From an uncultured Winogradskyella sp. (lineage in GTDB: Bacteria > Bacteroidota > Bacteroidia > Flavobacteriales > Flavobacteriaceae): a stretch of DNA of 64,000 nucleotides. Under the pieces are notes generated by a model. The model made no database searches, was not told the origin of the DNA, and saw nothing but the letters and a program-made list of their open reading frames with translations. Below are positions 14,363 through 18,898 of this stretch, piece by piece. Where the stretch lies: NCBI RefSeq assembly GCF_947496485.1, contig NZ_CANMCZ010000001.1, positions 1,111,596-1,175,595 of the forward strand, written 5' to 3'. Each line of letters starts with the position of its first letter. The first letter of the stretch is position 1. Position numbers and translations under genes: made by a program.

Positions 14363-14461
14363 ATTTCAAAAAATTTAAGAGTACATAAATCTGAACAGTT
14401 TTAAGAGCATCACAACATGTGTTGCATTTAAAACAGTAACAAACTATTGAATAAAATTATC

Positions 14462-15043
14462 ATGGAAAATAATTTACATAACAGCTATTTGTTCAAAGCG
14501 ATGGAAGCTTATCCCTGGGAATTAGAAAAAGCAGTAGAGGCATTAAATTATGCTTTGTCTTATGACCCAGAAAATGTGAAAGCCTTGCATTTAATGGCAA
14601 AAGTGCACTATGAGCAATTAGGTGATAATGAAACGGCTAAAAGCTATTTTGAAAGGGCTTTAGCAAGTAGATTGGATATGCCAGATATATATCCAGACTA
14701 CATCAGATTATTAATTAATAATCACGATTTCAAAGAAGCCCAAAGATTAATTGACTTTGCTAAAACTGTAAAAGGAATTGACAGAGCAGGTATCGCTTTA
14801 GCTCAAGGTCAACTTTATGAAAGCATGACATTGTTTGTCGAAGCAGAAAAGGCTTTAAAAGATGCAAAGCAATTAGCATTGAACAATGATTTTATCAGTT
14901 ACGTTGATGACATTTTAACTCGAGTTAAGAAGAAAAAAAAGATTCAGGCTAACGAAAATAGAATCATAGAGAATCAGGCTAAAAAAGAAGTGGAGGCCGA
15001 ACCTAAAAAGTGGTTTCAAAATCGATTAAATAATTTATTGTAA
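14462..15043 (+). CDS. Tetratricopeptide-repeat protein
   Basis: I place the start at the ATG 15 bases inside the ORF-track entry, which begins with a TTG; the protein is then about 193 residues (MENNLHNSYLF). It contains three or more TPR-like helical pairs (EKAVEALNYALSYDPENVKA, NETAKSYFERALASRLDMPD, FVEAEKALKDAKQLALNND) and a basic, charged C-terminal tail. It has no signal peptide or TM segment, so it is a cytoplasmic scaffold. It is the first full gene after the attenuator and ends 55 bases before the first tRNA, so it is probably cotranscribed with the tRNA array. TPR proteins give protein-protein contacts; the partner is unknown, but the slipin gene at the other end of the array is a candidate. 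Confidence 0.75.
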   Translation: MENNLHNSYLFKAMEAYPWELEKAVEALNYALSYDPENVKALHLMAKVHYEQLGDNETAKSYFERALASRLDMPDIYPDYIRLLINNHDFKEAQRLIDFAKTVKGIDRAGIALAQGQLYESMTLFVEAEKALKDAKQLALNNDFISYVDDILTRVKKKKKIQANENRIIENQAKKEVEAEPKKWFQNRLNNLL

Positions 15044-15098: not shown

Positions 15099-15180
15099 GG
15101 GAATGCGTCCAAGTAGGAGAGTGGAGTCAGTCTGTAAAACTGATGCTTAAGCTTAATAGGTTCGAATCCTATGATTCCCA
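15099..15180 (+). tRNA. tRNA-Tyr (GTA)
   Basis: Acceptor GGGAATG/GATTCCC (the seventh pair is G-G), anticodon stem TCAGT/ACTGA around CTGTAAA, a long class II variable region (TGCTTAAGCTTA) and T-arm ATAGG-TTCGAAT-CCTAT with discriminator A. The anticodon is GTA. No CCA is encoded. This is the only array tRNA with a class II variable arm. Confidence 0.9.
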
Positions 15181-15185
15181 CAACT

Positions 15186-15258
15186 AGTATCGTAGCTCAA
15201 TGGTTAGAGTGCTCGGTTGTCTCCCGAGAAGTTGCGAGTTCGAATCTCGTCGGTACTG
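15186..15258 (+). tRNA. tRNA-Asp (GTC)
   Basis: Acceptor AGTATCG/CGGTACT (one G-U), anticodon stem CTCGG/CCGAG around TTGTCTC, T-arm GCGAG-TTCGAAT-CTCGT and discriminator G, as expected for Asp. It starts with A1, unusual for bacterial tRNA-Asp. Confidence 0.9.
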
Positions 15259-15263
15259 CTAAT

Positions 15264-15336
15264 GCTCTATTAGCATAGTGGTTTAGTGCATCCGACTTTC
15301 TATCGGAAGACAAGGGTTCGATTCCCTTATAGAGTA
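15264..15336 (+). tRNA. tRNA-Glu (TTC)
   Basis: Acceptor GCTCTAT/ATAGAGT, anticodon stem TCCGA/TCGGA around CTTTCTA, T-arm AAGGG-TTCGATT-CCCTT, discriminator A. The anticodon is TTC. Confidence 0.9.
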
Positions 15337-15341
15337 CATAA

Positions 15342-15414
15342 TGAGGTGTAGCTTAATTGTTAAAGCACCGAGCTTTTAACTCGGGTGATTTAGGTTCAAG
15401 TCCTAATACCTCAA
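15342..15414 (+). tRNA. tRNA-Lys (TTT)
   Basis: Acceptor TGAGGTG/TACCTCA (last pair G-U), anticodon stem CCGAG/CTCGG around CTTTTAA, T-arm TTAGG-TTCAAGT-CCTAA, discriminator A. The U1-A72 end pair is atypical. Confidence 0.9.
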
Positions 15415-15419
15415 CAATT

Positions 15420-15493
15420 GCAGGAATGGCGGAATAGGCATACGCTCTTGTCTTAGAAACAAGATTTTGAGAGTTCGAATCTCTCTTCCTGTA
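15420..15493 (+). tRNA. tRNA-Leu (TAG) with short variable loop
   Basis: Acceptor GCAGGAA/TTCCTGT, a Leu-like D-arm (GGCGGAATAGGC), anticodon stem CTTGT/ACAAG around CTTAGAA, T-arm GAGAG-TTCGAAT-CTCTC. Only about five bases (ATTTT) lie between the anticodon and T stems, whereas bacterial tRNA-Leu normally has a long class II arm there. Confidence 0.88.
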
Positions 15494-15498
15494 CTAAT

Positions 15499-15572
15499 GC
15501 TTCGCTGGCCAAACTGGAAAAGGCAACACGTTTAAGCCGTGTGATTTCTTGGTTCGAATCCAAGGCGAAGTA
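15499..15572 (+). tRNA. tRNA-Leu (TAA) with short variable loop
   Basis: Acceptor GCTTCGC/GCGAAGT, anticodon stem ACACG/CGTGT around TTTAAGC, T-arm CTTGG-TTCGAATC-CAAG, discriminator A. It too lacks the class II variable arm; only GATTT separates the two stems. Confidence 0.88.
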
Positions 15573-15577
15573 CAAAT

Positions 15578-15649
15578 AAGCTCATGGTGTAGCGGATAGC
15601 ATTCAAAGCTACGGACTTTGAGGTATGGGTTCGAATCCTATTGGGCTTA
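15578..15649 (+). tRNA. tRNA-Arg (ACG)
   Basis: Acceptor AAGCTCA/TGGGCTT (one U-G), anticodon stem CAAAG/CTTTG around CTACGGA, T-arm ATGGG-TTCGAAT-CCTAT. The anticodon ACG would be edited to ICG by TadA as in the ordinary tRNA-Arg. Confidence 0.88.
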
Positions 15650-15655
15650 CAATAA

Positions 15656-15726
15656 TAACCTGTGGTGTAATGGTAACACTCAAGATTTTGATTCTTGTAT
15701 TATAGGTTCGAATCCTATCAGGTTAT
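15656..15726 (+). tRNA. tRNA-Gln (TTG)
   Basis: Acceptor TAACCTG/CAGGTTA, D-arm GTGTAATGGTAACAC, anticodon stem CAAGA/TCTTG around TTTTGAT, T-arm ATAGG-TTCGAAT-CCTAT, discriminator T. The U1-A72 end pair fits Gln. Confidence 0.88.
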
Positions 15727-15729
15727 CTG

Positions 15730-15799
15730 GTGTCTATAGTGTAATGGCTCGCACAGGAGGTATATCCATCTAGATCAAGTTCGAATCTTGATAGACACT
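15730..15799 (+). tRNA. tRNA of uncertain identity (best-fit anticodon ATA)
   Basis: Acceptor GTGTCTA/TAGACAC, D-stem GTGT/GCAC and T-arm TCAAG-TTCGAAT-CTTGA are sound. The anticodon arm AGGAG-GTATATC-CATCT has one A-A mismatch and one G-U; with T at position 33 the anticodon reads ATA, which would decode Tyr and is not normal in bacteria. The variable loop is three bases and the discriminator is T. It may be degenerate or rely on base modification. Confidence 0.7.
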
Positions 15800-15805
15800 A
15801 AAACC

Positions 15806-15878
15806 GGAACAGTAGCAAAGTTGGTCAATGCACTAGACTGAAGCTCTAGCGATACAGGTTCGAATCCTGTCTGTTCCA
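15806..15878 (+). tRNA. tRNA-Phe (GAA)
   Basis: Acceptor GGAACAG/CTGTTCC, anticodon stem CTAGA/TCTAG around CTGAAGC, T-arm ACAGG-TTCGAAT-CCTGT, discriminator A. All arms are intact. Confidence 0.92.
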
Positions 15879-15964
15879 CTAACGTTCATTGAAATCTTAT
15901 GAAATTCAATTATTGAGTTTCATAACTAAAAAATCATCAGTCTTTAATTTTGATTATTGAATGA

Positions 15965-16391
15965 TGGGGTAGCTTATTGTCCTAAGATAAACTTGGTAAC
16001 AAGGATAAATCTGTTTGCAGACACTGCAGATGGAGACTGTTTTCTTTTGAAAATAGTACGTGTAAGCAAGCAACAAACGTAAGTTATTATTTGCAAGGGG
16101 CAACCGCTGACACAAGTAAGAATTTACAGCCGATAGTAGTTAGGCTTGAGATGGAGACATCAACAGGAAAAGTTGTAGTTATTGGTTACGTATAGGTCAT
16201 CCAACCTAACGGAGCTGATTGCAGTATTAAAGTTACCCGACAGGAAATGGTTCGGTAGTTTAACATACTGTGTGTTGGGAAACACACAAGGAGAAGGTTG
16301 GTATTTTGTAGGCCAAAATCTACGGAGCCATTTTCGAAGCCCTTCTCCTAGGTCAAAGTTTAATGTCTAGGTTCGATTCCTAGTATCCAAA
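15965..16391 (+). tRNA. Interrupted tRNA (5' and 3' halves split in the anticodon loop)
   Basis: The 5' half is TGGGGTA, D-stem CTTA/TAAG and anticodon 5' stem TAAAC with TTGGTAA after it (15965-15999). The 3' half is GTTTA, variable ATGT, T-arm CTAGG-TTCGATT-CCTAG, acceptor TATCCAA and discriminator A (16358-16391). TAAAC/GTTTA pair fully; the acceptor pairs 6 of 7 with one G-U and one G-A mismatch. If the splice is after GGT the tRNA is Thr(GGT). If it follows group I rules (exon ends in T, intron ends in G at 16352) the loop becomes TTTCAAA with anticodon TCA, which would read UGA. The two readings cannot be separated by eye. Confidence 0.6.
15998..16355 (+). ncRNA. Group I intron-like insert in the tRNA anticodon loop
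   Basis: Boundaries are approximate. The insert has a P4-Q-like segment GGGGCAACCGCTGACACAAG comparable to GGGCAAUCCUGAGCCAA of the cyanobacterial tRNA-Leu intron, an R-like segment GATGGAGACATCAACAGG, and TATAGGTCATCC, which can pair with GGAGAC as a bulged P7. Several local hairpins (CTTG-GTAA-CAAG at the 5' end, ATCTG/CAGAT) are present. Insertion in an anticodon loop is the usual site for bacterial group I introns. It has no homing endonuclease ORF. A canonical P1 U-G pair could not be found, so the exact splice sites and self-splicing ability are unknown. Confidence 0.55.
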
Positions 16392-16397
16392 CCGATA

Positions 16398-16440
16398 AGG
16401 GATATAGCTCAAAGGTTAGAGCACTGTATTTTTCATACAG
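16398..16440 (+). pseudogene. Orphan tRNA 5' half
   Basis: AGGGATA, TA, D-arm GCTC-AAAGGTTA-GAGC, then a hairpin CTGTA-TTTTTCA-TACAG in the anticodon-arm position form a clear tRNA 5' half. No T-arm or TATCCCT acceptor strand follows before the next tRNA. The hairpin could be a real anticodon arm (TTT, but with an unusual C37) or a P1-like exon/guide duplex. The closest partner is the 3' half ending TATCCAA immediately upstream, which pairs only 5 of 7 and fits the interrupted tRNA better. Confidence 0.5.
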
Positions 16441-16762
16441 CGAAAAGCACAAGACTTCGGACATTATAGCAGCTAGTAGTTGCCTAAACCCATTGAAAGA
16501 TATGGGACAGTAGAGGTTGCAAGCCTATACTGTGCGGTGAACATTCTAATAGGCCGCCTCAAAGGAGGACGTCTATGAATGGTGAGGGAGCCAACCCTTG
16601 TAATTGCAAAGCGTGGTTTTATACCACTATGCAAGCCAAGTCTAAGTCGCTGAACGGCTATAATGTATTAGGCATCGGATAAGTACACAATTCTCAAGCG
16701 ATGAGAAGCGTGTGGAAAATTAGGGAAGGGCTACTGCTATAATCCTAAGAAAGCTTATCTAC
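16441..16762 (+). ncRNA. Structured insert RNA, possibly a group I intron remnant
   Basis: About 320 nt with many local helices and no plausible ORF follow the orphan 5' half. ATGCAAGCCAAGTCTAAGTC strongly recalls the Q segment of IC-type group I introns (GCAGCCAAGUCCUAAGUC in Tetrahymena), and GAGGGAGCCAACCC could be the preceding P4/P5 part. I could not place the R and S segments or a 3' exon, so this may be a truncated or divergent intron, or another RNA class. Confidence 0.4.
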
Positions 16763-16791
16763 AAGCGGAGGTATTCTCAGAACGCTTTTTT
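16763..16791 (+). terminator. Rho-independent terminator inside the tRNA island
   Basis: AAGCG pairs with CGCTT with an inner GAG/CTC, followed by a run of six T. It would end a transcript from the first part of the array, so the downstream tRNA units and slipin may depend on read-through or another promoter. Confidence 0.6.
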
Positions 16792-16803: not shown

Positions 16804-17008
16804 GCCTCTTTAGCTCAAAGGGAAGAGCTATGGTAAAAGATCCTTATCGTCGCCATGGAGTGATTGGATGATGTTGTTAGCGACGCGCTTGCTAATGAAT
16901 AGAATTTGCAGAAGCACCGAAATTAACAGGATTAAAAGTAGGGAAGCGCATTTATAGCCAATCTGTCCACTTTTAGTGGAAGTACCAGTTCGAATCTGGT
17001 AAGAGGTG
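16804..17008 (+). tRNA. Interrupted tRNA-Lys-like gene, insert between D and anticodon arms
   Basis: Acceptor GCCTCTT/AAGAGGT (first pair G-U), D-arm GCTC-AAAGGGAA-GAGC (ending 16828), then about 135 nt of insert, then a 4-bp anticodon arm TCCA-CTTTTAG-TGGA (16966-16980), variable AGT and T-arm ACCAG-TTCGAAT-CTGGT. The loop gives anticodon TTT. Discriminator G does not fit Lys. An alternative reading uses CCA pairing with ATGG of the 5' part and treats ACTT/AAGT as a class II variable arm (Ser-like). The insert TATGGTAAAAG...CTTTTAG can pair across its ends. Confidence 0.5.
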
Positions 17009-17149
17009 CAAAATATTAAAGTATCAAGCTGGTCTTGTTGGGTGTTTCGGTATAGCACTATTGTGTAAAACGTTGCAGAGATGTATTATGTTTTTATATA
17101 CAACTAGACTTGAAGGTTACGGTTTTTTACCAAAATAAAAACCACCAGT
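17009..17149 (+). other. Spacer with possible intron-core fragments
   Basis: About 140 nt between the interrupted tRNA and the upstream 3' half of the permuted candidate. It contains GTTGCAGAGATG, similar to the group I R segment, and a GGTTTTTTACC hairpin. No tRNA 5' half with GGGGAAG is present here, which matters for the permuted reading of the next unit. Confidence 0.3.
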
Positions 17150-17231
17150 TCTATGTACGTGAGTTCGAATCTCACCTTCCCCTCAAAAGAGAATAAAACA
17201 AGGGGAAGTAGCTTAGTGGTGAAGCAATAGA
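17150..17231 (+). tRNA. Candidate circularly permuted tRNA (3' half upstream of 5' half)
   Basis: In genomic order: TCTAT, GTAC, T-arm GTGAG-TTCGAAT-CTCAC, acceptor 3' strand CTTCCCC, discriminator T (17150-17183), an 18-nt linker, then acceptor 5' strand GGGGAAG, TA, D-arm GCTT-AGTGGTG-AAGC, A, ATAGA (17202-17231). Joined 5' half to 3' half, every helix is perfect: acceptor 7/7 Watson-Crick, D 4/4, anticodon ATAGA/TCTAT 5/5, T 5/5. In normal order the 5' half has no partner downstream (next acceptor strand is CAGTAGC). The anticodon cannot be fixed because the loop junction is unknown. Permuted tRNA genes are known from algae and archaea; I know of no established bacterial case. Confidence 0.5.
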
Positions 17232-17267
17232 TCGTAGCTGTCGTCGGTTCGAATCCGATCAGTAGCT
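17232..17267 (+). other. tRNA 3' half (T-arm and acceptor strand)
   Basis: GTAG, T-arm GTCGG-TTCGAAT-CCGAT, acceptor strand CAGTAGC and T. The acceptor does not pair with GGGGAAG just upstream, but pairs 7/7 (one G-U) with GCTATTG, which begins the tRNA 15 bases downstream, and GTAG can pair with CTAC of that tRNA. It is thus a second candidate 3'-before-5' unit. Confidence 0.45.
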
Positions 17268-17281
17268 TGGATAAATCCTTG

Positions 17282-17354
17282 GCTATTGTAGCTCAGTTTG
17301 GTTAGAGCACTACTCTTTTAAAGTAGGTTATGGACTCAAAATCCATCAACACCA
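17282..17354 (+). tRNA. tRNA-Lys (TTT)-like, imperfect acceptor in normal order
   Basis: GCTATTG, TA, D-arm GCTC/GAGC, anticodon arm CTACT-CTTTTAA-AGTAG (a textbook Lys loop), then ATGGA-CTCAAAA-TCCAT in the T-arm place, CAACACC and A. Length is normal (73). The acceptor pairs only 5 of 7 with CAACACC and the T-loop lacks TTCRANY. The upstream 3' half pairs 7 of 7 with the same 5' strand and has a proper T-loop, so this gene may use either 3' half. Confidence 0.5.
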
Positions 17355-17800
17355 AAGCTTATCATCTTGTAAAACTGATAGAAAAGCAGTCCGTCACACT
17401 GCTCAATAAAAATGGCGGAATAGTAGATTGTAAATTGGCTTTAATAGTAACTATTAGTGTTCAATAAAAAGCAATCTTAGACATACTTTGAATTACTGAT
17501 TTGTAATCTCAAAAGTGGTTACTACTTTGATTAAAAGTAAAAAGATAAAATAGAGATGTTTTCTTTTTTTGACTGACTTTCATTGTACTGATTATGACTG
17601 ATATTACTATGAGTAATTCCGTTTGGAAGAGATGATTTGCAATCTGCTATTTTCTTAAAAATAGGAATAAAAATAATAATAAACTTCAAATAGTGCTGAA
17701 CTCGTCAGACCTATTTTGAAGCTGGTAATCCGTCCGTTACAAGTATTACCAAATCGCCTTAGTTGGCAAACACTAATGTTTAATTTTAAAAACAAAAACA
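17355..17800 (+). other. Non-coding tail of the tRNA island and slipin leader
   Basis: No credible ORF or complete tRNA was found. There is a Leu-type D-arm-like string (ATGGCGGAATAGTAGATT near 17411), an AGATTG/CAATCT long-range pairing with CTTAGAC beside it that looks like a decayed or split tRNA-Leu, and a GGTAAT/ATTACC hairpin at 17724-17750 upstream of the slipin gene. No Bacteroidota promoter is convincing. Confidence 0.35.
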
Positions 17801-18898
17801 ATGTTACGAGTAAGAGTTAATGTAGGAAAAGTAGGTTTAGTATTCAAAAGAGGTGATTACGTTAAGGTAATTACTCAAGGAGTACACTGGTTAGGTTTAA
17901 ATCAACGTGTATTAACGTATGATTTAAGTACTATTTTCATAGCACCACTAGCATTAGAAATCTTATTAAAAGATGAGGTTTTGGCTAACATGCTAGACGT
18001 TATCGAGGTAAAGGACGGAGAATTGGTTTTACTTTACGAAAAAGGCAACTTTAAATCTGTTTTAACTTCTGGTCGCTATGCATACTGGAAAGGTTTGATT
18101 GAGCGTGAGTACGTACGTGTAGATTTAAGCAAAATCTACATTACAGAAAGCTTAGACAAATCATTATTTAGCAAATTAGAAGTTAGTAAATACATTAGAA
18201 CGTTTGAAGTAGCAGCTTACGAGAAAGCGGTGCTTTTAGTAGATGATGTATATACAAAAACTCTAGAAGGTGGTACTTATCGTTTCTGGAGAAATGATAC
18301 TACTGTTAAAATTGCTAAAGTGGATTTACGTCAGCTCCAATTAGAAATTGCAGGACAAGAATTGTTAACTAAAGATAAGGCAGCTATCAGAATTAACTTT
18401 TACACACAGTACAAAGTTACAGATGTAGAAAAAGCACTTTTAGATAACAAAGATTACGAAAAGCAATTATACATTACTATGCAATTAGTTTTGCGTGCTT
18501 ATGTTGGCGCCTACACTTTAGATGAATTGCTAGAACGTAAAGAAAATATTGCAGAAGCTGTATTTGAAGACGTAAAAGCAGGTGCTACTAAATTAGGTGT
18601 AACCGTTTTAAACTGCGGTATTAGAGATGTAATTTTAACCGGTGAAATGAAGGATATTATGAACCAAGTTTTAGTTGCACAAAAGAAAGCACAAGCTAAT
18701 GTTATTATGAGACGTGAAGAAACAGCTTCTACACGTAGCTTGCTAAATACGGCAAAGTTGATGGAAGAGAATGACATGCTGTACAAGCTAAAGGAGATGG
18801 AATATGTGGAAAAAATCGCTGAGAAAATTGGCGAGATCACAGTCTCAGGTAATGGAAATATGGTAACACAATTAAAGGAGATTTTCTCTGGAAAATAA
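17801..18898 (+). CDS. Slipin/SPFH (band 7) family protein
   Basis: This 365-residue protein has a central SPFH domain (about 110-300, with FEVAAYEKAVLLVDD, YKVTDVEKALLDNKDYEKQL and LGVTVLNCGIRDVILTGEMK) followed by a coiled-coil-like tail. The tail starts MNQVLVAQKKAQANVIMRRE, typical of slipins/stomatins that oligomerise into membrane-associated rings. The usual N-terminal membrane hairpin is missing; instead the protein begins with a soluble duplicated segment. It follows the tRNA island on the same strand and ends in a strong terminator. Slipin-like genes recur in bacterial RNA-repair neighbourhoods with RtcB and TROVE/Ro60 proteins (my recollection of comparative surveys); neither gene is in this window, so a role in RNA repair is inference from context only. 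Confidence 0.85.
   Translation: MLRVRVNVGKVGLVFKRGDYVKVITQGVHWLGLNQRVLTYDLSTIFIAPLALEILLKDEVLANMLDVIEVKDGELVLLYEKGNFKSVLTSGRYAYWKGLIEREYVRVDLSKIYITESLDKSLFSKLEVSKYIRTFEVAAYEKAVLLVDDVYTKTLEGGTYRFWRNDTTVKIAKVDLRQLQLEIAGQELLTKDKAAIRINFYTQYKVTDVEKALLDNKDYEKQLYITMQLVLRAYVGAYTLDELLERKENIAEAVFEDVKAGATKLGVTVLNCGIRDVILTGEMKDIMNQVLVAQKKAQANVIMRREETASTRSLLNTAKLMEENDMLYKLKEMEYVEKIAEKIGEITVSGNGNMVTQLKEIFSGK

Follow-up and report, generated by a model that had tools for sequence, protein, structure and literature searches.

A Probable Y-RNA-Type RNA with Tandem Circularly Permuted tRNA-Like Modules in a Slipin-Linked RNA-Repair Island of Flavobacteriaceae

The bacterial Y RNA YrlA (RF02553; PDB 6CU1) has been described as a tRNA in circularly permuted form (PMC11472068). 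YrlA binds Rsr via its end stem and PNPase via its tRNA-like domain (PMC8394870). Permuted tRNA genes give functional tRNAs by way of a BHB motif, a splicing endonuclease and a circular intermediate (PMC3978253). Descriptions of the large RNAs GOLLD and ROOL place them in phages and prophages (PMC12286853). A single repressor that reacts to translational stress governs a slipin gene, rtcB and an array of 26 tRNAs in Anabaena (PMC10272220), which independently links slipin, rtcB and tRNA array; RtcB-PrfH and RlaP have been described as answers to toxin RNases (PMC6514570, PMC7824862). Here, we report an RNA from an uncultured Winogradskyella sp. that is very probably a Y-RNA-type permuted tRNA mimic in an RNA-repair island.

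The window is the whole 64,000-nucleotide stretch analysed (contig NZ_CANMCZ010000001.1, positions 1,111,596 to 1,175,595); its features are collected in Table 1. Transcription, ends and fold of the RNA were inferred from sequence. A sequence-only reading of the window had placed a tRNA 3' half ahead of a 5' half, and the letters were found where it put them. The linear order of this module 1 is TCTAT, variable loop GTAC, T arm GTGAG-TTCGAAT-CTCAC, CTTCCCC, a 19-nt A-rich linker, GGGGAAG, UA, D arm GCTT-AGTGGTG-AAGC, A and ATAGA. All cloverleaf stems pair (acceptor, 7/7; D, 4/4; anticodon, 5/5; T, 5/5), and ARAGORN reported nothing in genomic order and a tRNA after the halves were rotated and a 7-nt loop was added. 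The 3'-before-5' order is real, being conserved in homologs and maintained by compensatory changes: across 49 homologs, the permuted acceptor covaries at 7/7 positions and the anticodon stem at 5/5, and module 1 is therefore not a chance pairing. A pattern search of the same genome found no normal-order tRNA with the 3' half of module 1; the nearest sequence was tRNA-Ala(GGC), with 3 mismatches in 20 bases. Module 1 has no conserved anticodon loop, its outer strands leading straight to a 5' domain and a second module. Beyond the two halves first noticed lie this second permuted module downstream, the conserved 5' domain and an island of RNA-repair genes around them.

Table 1. Positions of the RNA, its parts and the neighbouring features in the window.
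Feature	Position	Strand	Remarks
TPR-repeat protein	14447-15043	+	Pfam TPR families; upstream of tRNA array
tRNA array	15099-15879	+	10 ordinary-order genes (ARAGORN)
GOLLD RNA	16289-16786	+	RF02032, 129.9 bits, E 2.5e-35; below gathering score 150
Second conserved RNA	16804-17011	+	Directly upstream; normal-order tRNA-like acceptor, D arm and T arm
Structured RNA carrying both modules	about 17022-17665	+	~640 nt; ends predicted from sequence
5' domain	17022-17149	+	P1, P2, P3 and small pseudoknot
P1	17025-17033 with 17103-17112	+	One bulged A
Hairpin P2	17041-17059	+	
P3	17064-17098	+	
Pseudoknot	17115-17117 with 17129-17131	+	Across hairpin 17121-17143
tRNA-like module 1	17150-17231	+	Circularly permuted cloverleaf, opened in anticodon loop
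Module 1 anticodon-stem strands	TCTAT 17150-17154; ATAGA 17227-17231	+	Closing anticodon-type helix
Module 1 T arm	17159-17175	+	
Module 1 acceptor strands	CTTCCCC 17176-17182; GGGGAAG 17202-17208	+	
Module 1 D arm	17211-17225	+	
tRNA-like module 2	17243-17326	+	Circularly permuted cloverleaf, opened in variable loop
Module 2 T arm	17243-17259	+	
Module 2 acceptor strands	CAGTAGC 17260-17266; GCTATTG 17282-17288	+	
Module 2 anticodon arm	17310-17326	+	CTACT-CTTTTAA-AGTAG, complete; loop CTTTTAA, triplet TTT
Free anticodon-type hairpin	17330-17346	+	ATGGA-CTCAAAA-TCCAT, triplet CAA
3' region of RNA	17347-17665	+	Alignment of 13 relatives
3'-region hairpin	17360-17380	+	TATCA-TCTTGTAAAAC-TGATA
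3'-region hairpin	17386-17402	+	GCAGT-CCGTCAC-ACTGC
Slipin-type protein (SPFH/Band_7)	17801-18898	+	PF01145, E 5.5e-30

A DNA search of 60 relatives found 17023-17400 conserved as one unit in congeners. The core of the 5' domain is invariant (GTTTC.GTAT..CAC.ATTG), the pseudoknot pairs as GGC/GCC, GGU/ACC or ACC/GGU among homologs, and the 5'-domain helices covary in alignments of 19 and of 49 homologs. A covariance model, R1, was made from the 19 aligned homologs and comprises the 5' domain and module 1 (modelled part, 17022-17231). In the 49 homologs, 95.1% of cells were paired and 45 of 53 pairs had changed on both sides; the covariation score was 0.490 versus 0.205 for shuffles (0/500 shuffles reached 0.490), and every slid version scored only 0.07-0.125. 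Since the 49 sequences had been aligned by fitting to the model, the MAFFT alignment of 19 sequences gives the more independent figures, with 96.8% paired, 34/56 pairs changed on both sides and again 0/500 shuffles reaching its score. All helices of the modelled part covary, the permuted acceptor and anticodon stems included.

Full-length R1 matches of at least 100 bits were present in 26 of 251 family genomes. Searched for in genome records, the 5'-domain core pattern turned up in at least 116 stretches, nearly all of them from Flavobacteriia, with Flavobacterium, Aquimarina, Tenacibaculum, Kordia and Chryseobacterium among the genera. Later counts use 117 distinct homologous copies, a lower bound and nearly all from Flavobacteriaceae; module-only R1 matches below about 40 bits, which include ordinary tandem tRNAs, were not counted as homologs. 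Two modules were detected in 91 of the 117 copies and three in 9. One homolog (L052, genome G092) retains the 5' domain and has lost the tRNA-like modules. The core pattern was found in 0 of the viral contigs searched, and phage records held no match to the RNA; the neighbour genes are chromosomal, and a phage or prophage origin was rejected. Neither Rfam 15 nor the papers searched contained the RNA family, its slipin-linked context free of Ro60, the tandem arrangement of its modules or its anticodon arms.

Module 2 has its D arm between acceptor strand and anticodon arm, and its rotated piece was called tRNA-Lys(ttt) by ARAGORN. In normal order, 17282-17354 scores 45 bits as a tRNA (Rfam). 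As an ordinary tRNA-Lys this prediction is likely false: an anticodon-type hairpin stands in for the T arm, with CTCAAAA as the supposed T loop, and the acceptor is mispaired, its true partner lying upstream. When module 2 arms were chosen by stem alone, the loops had U33 in 95, R37 in 96 and Y32 in 96 of 97 arms; positions 34-36 were the most variable, with 21 different triplets. The free hairpin, ATGGA-CTNNNAA-TCCAT, gave a like result in 50 homologs also chosen by stem alone (U33 in 49, A37 in 46, position 34 most variable), and hairpins of 5 bp with a 7-nt loop other than T arms numbered 2.4 per RNA against 0.68 in shuffles. Module 2 and one or two further hairpins display complete anticodon loops (Y32, U33, R37) whose triplets differ between relatives. 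The triplets include UUA and UCA, which would match stop codons, and a decoding role therefore appears unlikely. In the 3' region, a third conserved hairpin (17360-17380) has an 11-nt loop with an anticodon-loop-like CTTNTAA, mostly CTTGTAA or CTTTTAA in 39 homologs. A conserved TTCCGT..AGATGATTTGCAATCTGCTATTTT stretch lies near the end of this region (13 relatives aligned).

The slipin is the next gene downstream on the same strand in 57/57 named loci with enough sequence, its start lying 484-1205 nt (median, 710) from the RNA start, and it is also downstream in all 20 contexts with full-length RNA, window included. Homologs of the TPR-repeat protein are found upstream in many relatives, and TPR protein and tRNA array often precede the RNA. 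The array tRNAs mostly duplicate isoacceptors found elsewhere in the genome. One of them (15729-15800) was called tRNA-Tyr(ata) by ARAGORN and missed by the Rfam tRNA model; it has an odd anticodon arm, may be decayed or specialised, and recurs in two relatives (L005 and L009). In Winogradskyella and relatives, GOLLD here sits in an RNA-repair island on the chromosome, and the flanking proteins checked included no phage genes. The GOLLD linker (about 16366-16423; genome positions 1127962-1128018) holds a further permuted tRNA-like module (R1, 31.4 bits). In the RNA directly upstream, a ~150-nt structured insert replaces the anticodon arm. This RNA is present at more than 30 loci (76-88% identity), with 24 of 49 predicted pairs changed on both sides and invariant motifs such as TTTGCAGAAGCACCGAAA and AGTAGGGAAGCGCATTT; it has no Rfam match and is apparently undescribed. 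RtcB is adjacent in nine of the 20 full-length contexts and lies about 285 kb away in the Winogradskyella genome itself. In others the neighbours are a PrfH-type RF-1 domain, a pair of RlaP genes together with an RNase T exonuclease, or PNKP and an RNA ligase of the Rnl1 type; WYL regulators stand upstream in eight of the 20.

In one relative (L009), both modules aligned to YrlA model positions 23-88 and 20-89 (41.5 and 36.5 bits; cmscan) with the same helix order as the tRNA-mimic part of YrlA. The best flavobacterial homolog scored 41.5 bits and the window 26.9 bits, both below the YrlA gathering score of 69. Single modules matched only the inner YrlA positions 20-89; no end-to-end Ro-binding stem was found with the RNA ends as predicted from sequence. 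A Ro60/TROVE gene was found in 0/60 relatives and 0/251 family genomes. As the strongest, blind control, nine Bacteroidota genomes outside the slipin group were taken from the top R1 matches, and Ro60 lay within 1.6 kb of the module match in 9/9. At one of these nine, from another Bacteroidota lineage (L063, genome G526; about 1318-2075), four to five tandem YrlA-type RNAs stand beside a Ro60 gene and an RtcB homolog; two of them exceed the YrlA gathering score, the best at 73.2 bits. RtcB was near several of these Ro60-linked loci. The sequence-only reading knew of no established bacterial case; the tRNA-mimic domain of YrlA is such a fold, bacterial, circularly permuted and already known (PMC11472068). 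The module fold is hence known from Y RNA; what appears new, against Rfam 15 and the papers searched, is the RNA family with its slipin in place of Ro60, the tandem layout and the anticodon arms.

Of the earlier proposal of a permuted bacterial tRNA, the permuted order stood and maturation of a gene by splicing endonuclease and ligase was not supported, given the short capped acceptors and the Y-RNA match. A true permuted tRNA gene would be cut and ligated at the anticodon (for example, by RtcB) and freed of its linker by RNase P and RNase Z to give a functional tRNA. The complete cloverleaf obtained on rotation fits such a gene, as do the RtcB ligase in the genome (adjoining the RNA in many relatives), the 7-bp acceptor and the A-rich linker of the window, whose 19 nt could on length alone permit end processing. 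A short linker would not by itself exclude maturation, because one permuted tRNA of the archaeon Thermofilum has a 1-nt linker (PMC3978253). Even so, a 7-bp acceptor that could be freed from its linker is a feature of the window and not of the family. Acceptor stems of 4, 5, 6, 7 and 8 bp occur in 4, 38, 36, 23 and 14 RNAs (4-6 bp in 78/115 homologs), with a median loop of 4 nt and the GNRA tetraloops GAAA, GTAA and GCAA among the commonest; the module 1 loop in relatives is usually 3-7 nt, and the RNA of the window, with its 7-bp stem and long A-rich loop, is in the minority. An acceptor hairpin of at least 5 bp starts precisely where the T arm ends in 95% of RNAs for module 1 and 86% for module 2, compared with 16% and 15% in shuffled sequences. 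For acceptor pairing, the analysis relies on the covariation in 49 homologs and on these T-arm-anchored hairpins; a loose D-arm motif understated it. The outer helix of module 1 is held between the 5' domain and the following module, and the genome, surveyed by search, already has a broad set of ordinary tRNAs. Because of the short acceptors, the stable caps, the missing anticodon loop and the match to YrlA, a matured tRNA is very unlikely, and module 1 is a built-in part of a long noncoding RNA, not a tRNA gene to be cut and rejoined. A permuted group I or II intron flanking the halves was considered, as it would explain a permuted tRNA, and was rejected: no Rfam intron family matched at E values up to 5, and the 5' domain folds alone with covariation. 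A graveyard of broken tRNA genes shuffled by recombination would suit the nearby array and the tRNA-derived sequence on both sides, but it is refuted by the strong covariation and by an order kept across many genera, and we give it almost no credence.

Taken as a whole, the RNA is probably best explained as a ~640-nt, Ro60-free Y-RNA relative that serves as a multi-tRNA mimic of a chromosomal RNA-repair island; on the predicted fold, two or more circularly permuted modules follow one another in it, every one an L-type cloverleaf with a loop-closed acceptor stem. It would be transcribed along with the island under translational or RNA-damage stress and would fold as is, neither spliced nor aminoacylated, its capped acceptors keeping it from being charged. 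It would then present tRNA elbows and several anticodon loops to tRNA-binding proteins, occupying anticodon nucleases and perhaps tethering repair or decay enzymes; meanwhile, RtcB or Rnl1-type enzymes would mend cut tRNAs, and the spare array would replace lost ones. This decoy or scaffold mechanism, the function we consider most likely, is put forward tentatively; it fits the repair genes nearby, the surplus tRNAs and an anticodon-loop frame that stays fixed while its triplets vary. Decoy action stays a proposal, since the nuclease that switches on the operon of Salmonella YrlA does not cut this RNA, for which Hughes and colleagues nevertheless suggested competitive inhibition (PMC7790460). 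More speculatively, a multi-anticodon bait is possible, in which several elbows and diversified-triplet loops on one RNA would absorb or report anticodon-cleaving toxins, in concert with the slipin and with enzymes of tRNA repair, as part of an island for immunity or repair. It is doubtful that the RNA acts like the Y RNA of Deinococcus, where a tether between a ring protein and PNPase (or a different exonuclease) redirects RNA decay: the permuted module is the same as in YrlA, whose binding of Rsr and PNPase was noted above (PMC8394870), but Ro60/TROVE is missing from the relatives and family genomes searched, single modules match only the inner part of YrlA, no end-to-end Ro-binding stem was found, and the constant neighbour is a slipin, not Ro60. 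A cis-acting leader of the slipin operon, whose modules would sense or bind a tRNA-related factor or be cut by a toxin and so control slipin expression, is unlikely. The order and spacing fixed at 57/57 loci speak for it, and no strong terminator was found between RNA and slipin in the window; however, at ~640 nt and with several closed domains the RNA is long to be a leader, the conserved sequence stops before a separate leader-like stretch that precedes slipin, and related modules beside Ro60 genes are known free RNAs.

Read as a multi-tRNA mimic, the RNA adds a large family absent from Rfam 15, extends tRNA mimicry of the Y-RNA type to bacteria that lack Ro60, and joins tRNA mimics and spare tRNA arrays with slipins and enzymes of RNA repair in a single conserved island. 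Because its triplets vary on a conserved anticodon-loop frame, the use of tRNA decoys by cells against anticodon nucleases becomes directly testable. In Bacteroidota genomes, the family also accounts for tRNA genes that look permuted or split and for tRNA predictions like that at 17282-17354.

Among known systems, the permuted tRNA genes of Cyanidioschyzon and Thermofilum share the order of 3' half, linker and 5' half; unlike them, the flavobacterial RNA has a closed acceptor, often shorter than 7 bp, inside a larger RNA. tmRNA, including permuted forms (RF00023, RF04321), likewise attaches a tRNA-like domain to a larger RNA, but its acceptor end can be charged and its D loop lacks a stem, whereas the acceptor here is capped and the D stem intact; tmRNA models gave only weak, T-arm-dominated matches, none above cut-off. 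GOLLD and ROOL are also large RNAs beside tRNA arrays, GOLLD in this same island, and 17022-17665 had no sequence match to either family (Rfam). Compared with YrlA (90-150 nt), the flavobacterial RNA is much longer (~640 nt), has its own 5' domain with a pseudoknot and at least two tandem modules with complete, variable anticodon arms, and has a slipin as constant neighbour, with neither a Ro60 gene nor a Ro-binding end stem found. The two RNAs are alike in their succession of closing helix, T arm, capped acceptor hairpin, D arm and closing helix, and both stand near RNA-repair genes such as RtcB.
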